Assembly (NCBI RefSeq): GCF_037890675.1
Contig: NZ_CP149574.1
Span: 3,820,874-3,884,873 of the forward strand
From: Methylovirgula sp. 4M-Z18
Lineage (GTDB): Bacteria > Pseudomonadota > Alphaproteobacteria > Rhizobiales > Beijerinckiaceae
Direction of reading: 5' to 3'
DNA: 64,000 nt
Numbering within the stretch: position 1 is the first letter of the stretch; every line of letters starts with the position of its first letter. Below the pieces are notes generated by a model. That model had not been told where the DNA came from. It saw nothing but the letters and a program-made list of their open reading frames with translations, and made no database searches. Positions 9,481 through 35,094 of the stretch are shown here, piece after piece. Position numbers and translations under genes: made by a program.

Positions 9481-9500
9481 GTGTCGCACATCTGCGACAC
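9481..9500. promoter_or_regulatory. Perfect 20-bp dyad, candidate site for the GAF-Fis regulator
   Basis: GTGTCGCA and TGCGACAC face each other across four bases, a perfect inverted repeat, 110 bases upstream of the aldehyde dehydrogenase start and 18 bases after the regulator's stop codon. Fis-type HTH activators bind dyads of this size. Assignment to the adjacent regulator is inferred from position. Confidence 0.65.
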
Positions 9501-9609
9501 TTCCGGCCTCCTGGATATCTCGCCCCCCTGGCCGGTTTCCGGCATGCAAGCCATCCTCTTTGCCAACAGCGCCACCATTTCGCGGCGTCGTTACATGGGA
9601 GGAAATGGC

Positions 9610-11127
9610 ATGAACAAAGTCGAATTTTCACGCGCGACGAAAATCCCCTTCGCGGAGCGCTACGATAATTTTATCGGCGGCAAATGGGCCGCGCCGAAAT
9701 CGGGGAAATATTTCGAGAATATCTCCCCCGTCACGGGACGACCGCTCGGCGAGATCGCCCGGTCCGATGCCGCTGACGTCGAAGCGGCCCTCGATGCCGC
9801 CCATAAGGCCAAGGACGCCTGGGGGAAGACCTCCCCAGCGGAGCGCGCCCTGATCCTCAACCGCATCGCCGACCGGATGGAAGAGAATCTCGATCTTCTG
9901 GCGCTTGCCGAAACCTGGGACAACGGCAAGCCGATCCGCGAGACGACCGCCGCCGACCTGCCGCTGGCCATCGACCACTTCCGCTATTTTGCCGGCGTCC
10001 TGCGCAGCCAGGAAGGTAGCATCTCCGAGATCGACCACGACACGATCGCCTACCATTTCCATGAGCCGCTGGGCGTCGTCGGTCAGATCATTCCCTGGAA
10101 CTTCCCGCTGCTGATGGCGTGCTGGAAACTTGCTCCCGCGCTTGCCGCCGGCAATTGCGTCATCATCAAGCCGGCCGAACAGACCCCCGCGACCATCCTG
10201 CTGTGGGCGAGCCTCATCGGCGACCTTCTGCCCGAAGGCGTGCTCAACATCGTCACGGGCTTTGGCCTTGAGGCCGGTAAGCCGCTCGCGTCCAGCCCGC
10301 GGATCGCCAAAATCGCCTTTACCGGCGAAACGACGACCGGCCGGCTCATCATGCAATATGCGTCGCAGAATCTCATTCCCGTGACGCTGGAGCTCGGCGG
10401 CAAGAGCCCCAATATCTTCTTCCAGGACGTCACCGCGGAAGACGACGACTATTTCGACAAAGCGATCGAAGGCTTTGTCATGTTCGCGCTCAACCAGGGC
10501 GAAGTCTGCACCTGCCCGAGCCGCGCGCTGGTGCATGAGAAGATCTACGACAAGTTCATGGAACGCGCGCTGAAACGCGTTGAGGCCATCGTGCAGGGTG
10601 ATCCGCTCGATCCCGCCACCATGATCGGTGCCCAGGCTTCGTCCGAACAGCTCGAGAAAATCCTGAGCTACTTCGACATCGGCCGCAAGGAAGGGGCCGA
10701 CCTCCTGATTGGCGGCGAGCGCAATCATCTGCCCGGCGACCTCGCCGGCGGCTATTACGTCAAGCCGACGGTGTTCAAGGGCCACAACAAGATGCGCATC
10801 TTCCAGGAAGAGATCTTCGGCCCGGTCGTTTCGGTGACGACCTTCAAGGATGACGACGAAGCGCTCGCCATCGCGAACGACACGCTCTACGGCCTCGGCG
10901 CGGGCATCTGGAGCCGCGATGCCAACCGCTGCTATCGCTTCGGCCGCGCTATCCAGGCGGGACGCGTGTGGACCAATTGCTATCACGCCTATCCGGCGCA
11001 CGCGGCGTTCGGCGGTTATAAGCAATCGGGCATTGGCCGCGAGACCCACAAGATGATGCTCGATCATTACCAGCAGACGAAGAATATGCTGGTAAGCTAT
11101 TCGCCGAAGAAGCTCGGCTTCTTCTGA
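9610..11127 (+). CDS. NAD-dependent aldehyde dehydrogenase (AcoD/ExaC type)
   Basis: A 505-residue aldehyde dehydrogenase. Visible are the cofactor-binding [19 protein letters not shown], the general-base region [13 protein letters not shown] with the catalytic Glu, and the active-site cysteine in [11 protein letters not shown]. The C-terminus ([15 protein letters not shown], ending in KKLGFF) is typical of acetaldehyde dehydrogenases of the AcoD/ExaC group. The start was chosen because GGAGGA lies six bases upstream. The gene sits between an AcoR-like regulator and a DUF779 gene, an arrangement I recognise from aldehyde-oxidation loci, so oxidation of acetaldehyde or another short aldehyde is the best guess. 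Confidence 0.93.
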
Positions 11128-11141
11128 TCGGCTTGCCAAAC

Positions 11142-11257
11142 CAAAACCCTTCTCTCGTAACACAAACCGGGTATACCCGGTTTGTGCATTCTTGATGCTG
11201 AACTCGGGCAGGCCCGAGTTCAGTGCGGGAGAAGGGTTTTGCGGATTCGAAATCCGC
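11142..11257 (+). repeat. Nested palindromes forming a potential three-way junction
   Basis: An outer stem pairs 11142-11159 with 11224-11241 over 18 positions with two G-U-type pairs. Inside it lie a 26-bp perfect palindrome at 11161-11186 (half-site CACAAACCGGGTA) and an 11-bp-arm inverted repeat at 11199-11222 (TGAACTCGGGC, two-base spacer). A further hairpin GCGGATT/AATCCGC follows at 11241-11257. The element lies between the aldehyde dehydrogenase stop and the DUF779 start, so it would be transcribed as a leader of the latter. Confidence 0.7.
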
Positions 11258-11295: not shown

Positions 11296-11652
11296 ATGGC
11301 TGAGAAAATATCCTTGGGAAAGGTCACCGCGACGCCGGAGGCTGTCGCCCTCCTCGACGAAATCATCGCCGAACACGGGCCGGTGCTCTTCCATCAATCG
11401 GGCGGCTGCTGCGACGGCTCCTCGCCCATGTGCTATCCGCGCGGTGATTTCATTGTGGGCGATCACGACGTCCTCCTGGGCGAAATCGGCGAGACGCCGG
11501 TCTTCATCAGTGCATCGCAATACGAAGCATGGAAACATACCGATCTGATCATCGACTGCGTGCCCGGGCGCGGCGGCATGTTCTCGCTCGACAATGGCCG
11601 CGAAAAACGCTTCCTCACCCGGTCGACGGTCTGCGCAATGCCGAAACCGTGA
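11296..11652 (+). CDS. DUF779 domain-containing protein
   Basis: A 118-residue protein matching the DUF779 family. Cysteines cluster in HQSGGCCDGSSPMCYP near residue 35, and the C-terminal part contains IDCVPGRGGMFSLDNGREKRF. The ATG at this position gives the normal family length. DUF779 genes often sit next to aldehyde dehydrogenases of the ExaC/AcoD group, as here. The cysteine cluster suggests metal binding or a redox role, but no biochemical function is established to my knowledge. A 168-base palindrome-rich stretch separates it from the dehydrogenase, so its expression may be adjusted separately within the operon. Confidence 0.88.
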   Translation: MAEKISLGKVTATPEAVALLDEIIAEHGPVLFHQSGGCCDGSSPMCYPRGDFIVGDHDVLLGEIGETPVFISASQYEAWKHTDLIIDCVPGRGGMFSLDNGREKRFLTRSTVCAMPKP

Positions 11653-32798: not shown

Positions 32799-32886
32799 GC
32801 CGTGAAGTTCAGGCTCGTCGCAGCACGAAACCTACGCCAAATCATACCAGTGGCGCTTGCATCGAACTCATGTGACGCCAGCAATT

Positions 32887-33013
32887 GTCATCCCGGGCTT
32901 GACCCGGGATACAGCGCCCCAACCTCGACGGCGCGAGATTGGCCTGTCCTGCAGCGCCAGCGATGATTCATGCGTTGCACGGCTGATGGATCCCGGGTCA
33001 AGCCCGGGATGAC
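32887..33013. repeat. Paired inverted repeat element (REP/BIME-like)
   Basis: Two 24-bp arms, 32887-32910 and 32990-33013, are exact reverse complements of each other; each arm is itself palindromic around CCCGGG-N4-CCCGGG (arm begins GTCATCCCGGGCTTGA). They bracket about 79 bases of unique sequence and sit directly after the binding-protein stop codon. A variant solo copy is at 18148-18175. The pattern is that of bacterial interspersed palindromic repeats. Confidence 0.8.
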
Positions 33014-33027
33014 ATCGAGGCCGGCAC

Positions 33028-35050: not shown

Positions 35051-35094
35051 CTAGGGTCAAAACGCGGTCATGGATGATCGCGTTTTGACCCTAG
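35051..35094. terminator. Strong bidirectional terminator hairpin
   Basis: A perfect 16-bp stem (CTAGGGTCAAAACGCG with its complement) is nearly extended to 20 bp with a TGGA loop. It ends both the HutC-like gene and the convergent GH15-like gene, whose stop codon lies within the right arm. The stem itself carries AAAA/TTTT, and the outermost pairs are followed by no T-run. Confidence 0.8.

Follow-up and report, generated by a model that had tools for sequence, protein, structure and literature searches.

The Rhizobium-specific intergenic mosaic elements (RIME) of rhizobia are intergenic elements of ~100 bp with two large palindromes, and the repeat described below resembles them in general description. 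REP and BIME repeats are short dispersed palindromes, often arranged as dimers, that form variant families and carry complementary changes in their stems (PMC3733652). Di Nocera et al. (2013, PMC3733652) describe dimers of REPs that have inserted into longer palindromes of H. neapolitanus and A. variabilis; in T. roseum they report REPs lying inside small palindromes. REPINs are inverted doublets of related hairpins with a short linker, which show long-hairpin and clover folds as well as compensatory changes (Bertels and Rainey 2011, PMC3116915). Br-REP1 of Bradyrhizobium is an intergenic repeat of three palindromes that is located in 3'-UTRs, and parts of it also occur alone (PMC5082802).

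The window analysed here, a 64-kb stretch, holds a dense cluster of palindromes between an aldehyde dehydrogenase (ALDH) gene and a DUF779-type gene. This cluster very probably belongs, as one copy, to a dispersed composite repeat of the REP/BIME type, palindromic and non-coding, whose copies would have spread as hairpins, and is not a dedicated regulator of DUF779. As in REP and BIME families, the palindromes are short, dispersed, paired, divided into variants and altered on both sides of the stem. Conversely, the GTAG or CGTC tetranucleotide that marks one end of each hairpin in the REP superfamilies (PMC3733652) was not found at the core hairpins (one class of host palindrome, class E, starts with CGTC), several palindromes host the core within one genome, and G-U pairs are not preferred. 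The inverted doublet of hairpins, seen in fold, alignment and covariation, is shared with REPINs, but the two hairpins are only partly alike and the genome lacks a RAYT gene; since both tags and RAYT are missing, we file the repeat as a REP/BIME-type composite and not as a REPIN. Br-REP1 is likewise an alphaproteobacterial intergenic composite of three palindromes, but it differs in sequence (central CCGGAATCTCGAGATTCCGG) and has a central palindrome with flanking ones instead of nested ones. The CCCTTCTCCC host string occurs in none of the papers that a literature search listed, and blastn at distant settings matched no record of the plasmid collection, the sole named collection so searched. 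The features of the locus are as follows:

9481-11127, + strand: ALDH open reading frame in its longest reading, stopping 19 bases short of the repeated unit.
11142-11157, + strand: left arm of the outer stem (inverted repeat, fold, alignment); its CAAAA, 11142-11146, is private to the window copy.
11147-11236, + strand: whole repeated unit, class A, with host arms CCCTTCTCTCG / CGGGAGAAGGG and the core in the loop; conservation ends just beyond the arms.
11157-11227, + strand: two-hairpin core (covariance model R1, 93.2 bits; 65.2 bits on the - strand).
11161-11186, no strand: H1, a perfect 26-nt palindrome, CACAAACCGGGTATACCCGGTTTGTG (inverted repeat and covariation).
11187-11197, + strand: linker between H1 and H2, here CATTCTTGATG, family consensus CATTTTTGATGC (conserved in the alignment).
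11198-11223, no strand: H2, inverted repeat CTGAACTCGGGC-AG-GCCCGAGTTCAG, with 12-nt arms 11198-11209 / 11212-11223 and a 2-nt loop (covariation).
11226-11241, + strand: right arm of the outer stem (inverted repeat, fold, alignment).
11241-11257, + strand: fourth hairpin, GCGGATT-CGA-AATCCGC, outside the repeat (fold) and missing from other copies.
11296-11652, + strand: DUF779-type gene, downstream of the repeat (open reading frame and homologue search).

An earlier note on this sequence had described an 18-bp outer stem enclosing a perfect 26-bp palindrome and an inverted repeat with 11-bp arms, with a fourth hairpin behind, and its coordinates and symmetry are correct within a base or two. 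The outer stem exists, although the inverted-repeat search of the window gives it 16-nt arms at 94% complementarity and not 18 bp; the palindrome is exactly as described, the arms of the second inverted repeat measure 12 nt, and the fourth hairpin appears in the predicted fold as a separate 7-bp element. That fold is a three-way junction, one of the two forms the note had proposed, with an outer 16-bp stem bearing two hairpins; its energy is -73.5 kcal/mol, whereas shuffled sequences average -34.6 (z = -11.3; 0 of 200 shuffles as good). Three of only 12 inverted repeats listed across the window with arms of at least 12 nt fall within this ~100-bp patch, so that the density of symmetry is well beyond chance. 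H1 and H2 share CGGG-N4-CCCG and differ outside that motif. In the alignment of copies from the same genome, the repeated unit runs from CCCTTCTC to GAGAAGGG; the window copy alone adds CAAAA/TTTTG pairs to the outer stem and carries the fourth hairpin.

BLAST returned 37-47 matches in the same genome, the best long ones being 94-75% identical, and the R1 model gave 97 matches at ~52 places, of which a few weak ones below ~36 bits may be chance. The core is thus dispersed in tens of copies per genome, as expected of REP/BIME-type repeats (~52 core places and 102 sites of the main host). Among the 60 genomes searched, in which the genus is represented by this genome alone, R1 matches occur in 10, that is, in 9 of the 59 others; these span nine further genera, two of which belong to other families of the order, a lineage-specific distribution. 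One relative carries three core copies in tandem, ~218 bp apart (L045, G011:C35:491081-491588). We also considered H2 as a free-standing REP and rejected it, as all 25 exact matches to the H2 core in the genome lie inside known core copies.

The stems are maintained by compensatory change, as in REP and BIME repeats. In a set of 33 copies drawn from four genomes, standard pairs make up 93.8% of the pair cells; both sides have changed in 19 of the 22 pairs, and compensatory cells number 89, against 20.4 in shuffles. Pairing drops to 18-46% in slid controls, and in classes A and B the outer arms fit their own partner better than partners taken from other copies (0 of 2000 shuffles). The covariation that the earlier note had asked to be checked is therefore strong, and its suggestion of a mobile palindromic element is supported by the ~52 dispersed copies. 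The same dispersal, without positional conservation, goes against its regulatory reading, and together with the covariation it points to a structured mobile repeat and not a cis-regulator. Selection at the RNA level on one strand should favour G-U pairs. We found no such excess in the stems (11 G-U against 17 A-C mismatches), which leaves RNA-level selection unsupported. Because G-U is no commoner than A-C and copies lie in mixed orientation, the symmetry looks like a DNA-level property of both strands. All of these pairing counts are inflated by ancestry shared among the copies.

By home-made gene calls, which missed DUF779 itself, the 52 copies are mostly extragenic, with 29 in same-direction gaps, 14 in convergent and five in divergent gaps, two at locus edges and only two inside called open reading frames. 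Their orientation relative to transcription is mixed and their neighbours are many unrelated genes. Among class A copies in same-direction gaps, nine of 13 are found no more than 35 nt from the stop codon upstream, where 5.1 would be expected at random in the gaps (P = 0.011). Such a context agrees with tolerance of the REP kind, or with a mildly useful role, at 3' ends. That the repeat is kept by selection at gene ends, as a terminator of transcription in both directions or as a stabiliser of mRNA 3' ends, is possible but rather unlikely. This proximity to stop codons would suit it, as would several more class A copies in convergent gaps, the different hairpins that relatives carry after the ALDH stop, and the TTTT that follows the stem of the window copy on both strands. 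However, most other copies lack the T run after the stem, orientation and core would be irrelevant to such a function and two nested hairpins unnecessary for it, and nearness to stops may merely mark where insertions are tolerated.

The family is built in two layers. An inner stretch of ~70 nt (H1 - CATTTTTGATGC - H2) is kept across copies, while the surrounding palindrome varies, its hosts being different REP-like repeats. In class A, to which the window copy belongs, the core lies in the loop of CCCTTCTCCC/GGGAGAAGGG (~20 copies); in class B it lies in the second hairpin of the parent repeat of class A, GGTGGCATGC..GCATGACGGATGAGGGG (~13 copies); in class E, in a CGTC-tagged REP, CGTCATTGCGA..GCGACGAAGCAATCC (~10 copies); and in class C, in a fourth repeat, ATGACCATTTTTCACCTCACC..GGCGAATTTGACC (~3 copies). 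These counts include corrections made by eye (3477826 reassigned to B and 52481 to C, both out of A; 1325528 doubtful). Hosts are also present in the same genome without the core: the pattern CCTTCTCCC-N0-30-GGGAGAAGG at 102 sites, CATTGCGAG..GACGAAGCAATCC at 19 and TTTTTCACCTCACC..GAATTTGRCCG at two, with no sites for any of the reversed controls. In other genomes the core occurs within further hosts, e.g. TTCTGGATTCCGGACAGC..GGCTTCCGGGATGACA in G015. The distinctive point of the family is this occurrence of one core in several host families within a single genome.

The core variant differs from one host class to the next, as would be expected if host and core were never separate and the core-free hosts were deletion products of an ancestral composite. 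Palindromes are prone to deletion, which would help such losses along. We regard this reading as unlikely nonetheless, given that the same core type occupies four or more unrelated hosts in this genome, with additional ones in other genomes, that hosts lacking the core greatly outnumber the composites (102 and 19 sites), and that three class E copies carry TGCGA on both flanks of the core whereas the empty host has a single TGCGA. MITEs are marked by terminal inverted repeats and target-site duplications; here the core ends are palindromic, and the 5-bp TGCGA duplication, suggestive of insertion, is confined to class E and to one fixed site, with the H1 arm itself using TTGCGA. As all class E copies share that site, the insertion may have been a single event that was copied later. 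Since each host type carries its own core version, copies could have spread as ready-made composites rather than by fresh insertion of the core. That the core is an independent mobile unit, moved by a non-RAYT enzyme and inserting repeatedly into the stems or loops of unrelated REP families under the guidance of single-stranded hairpin structure, is a tentative proposal that we think improbable.

We also weighed a true REPIN/RAYT system, in which the doublet would be moved by a REP-associated tyrosine transposase. The inverted doublet of related hairpins that together form a larger hairpin, the clover and long-hairpin folds known from REPINs (PMC3116915) and the restriction of the H2 core to doublets all recall such a system, but its hairpins have no GTAG tag here and a search for Y1_Tnp (PF01797) gave no match in the genome, so that no Y1/RAYT transposase is available there as a partner; we consider it quite unlikely. 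An IS110-family element was also rejected as mover of the core: its four near-identical copies are always placed at one position of CGTC REPs, and they show no link to the core. These copies (G000:C1:38541, 1031666, 3783994 and 4567596; L248-L251) all lie at ..GCAATCC|TGTATGTTTG, a placement consistent with the published targeting of REPs by insertion sequences (PMC1525189). At L190 (G000:C1:372038), a class E composite is followed at this spot by a truncated end of the IS110 element.

Our preferred explanation remains a REP/BIME-type composite, in which the ~70-nt core of H1, linker and H2, nested in a host palindrome, would adopt a clover or three-way fold in single-stranded DNA or RNA. Copies would probably have been spread non-autonomously, as DNA hairpins, by an enzyme; we take this route as the most likely because Y1/RAYT is lacking, the TGCGA sign may stem from one copied event and the H1 arm itself contains TTGCGA. 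Neither excision nor an insertion polymorphism nor an intermediate of transposition was observed. Copies just past stop codons may persist because they do no harm at that position, or because they are of mild use as 3'-end structures working in both directions. The window copy would have landed between ALDH and DUF779 in the present lineage, where it may incidentally end or stabilise the ALDH transcript.

DUF779 homologues are present in 25 of the 60 family genomes, this one included, and many of these keep the ALDH-DUF779 adjacency with other sequence in the gap: plain terminator-like hairpins, other REPs or, at one locus (L150), a bare CCCTCTCCC..GGGAGAGGG palindrome. Control of DUF779 by a structured RNA leader acting in cis, the regulatory option of the earlier note, or by an intercistronic switch is highly improbable and largely refuted: although the repeat ends ~60 bases before DUF779 begins, folds very stably and covaries at its paired positions, the core is absent within ~1.5 kb of all 24 other DUF779 loci found in the family despite the frequent ALDH-DUF779 order, copies adjoin unrelated genes in either orientation with no preference for G-U, and an Rfam scan of the region yielded no known RNA (the top score was 14.4 bits, where the gathering score is 80).

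The striking symmetry of the locus is thereby explained without a special regulator, which guards against its annotation as a riboswitch or DUF779 leader. More generally, because hosts with and without the core coexist in one genome, the family lends itself well to the study of how palindromes can spread in the absence of RAYT enzymes and of why they gather in the hairpins of other repeats. Elsewhere in the window, an inverted pair of TGTCATCCCGGGCTTGACCCGGGATACA at 32886-33014, with 28-nt arms 73 nt apart, resembles another REP doublet, and at 35051-35094 lies CTAGGGTCAAAACGCGGTCAT, an almost perfect palindrome whose 21-nt arms enclose a loop of 2 nt.
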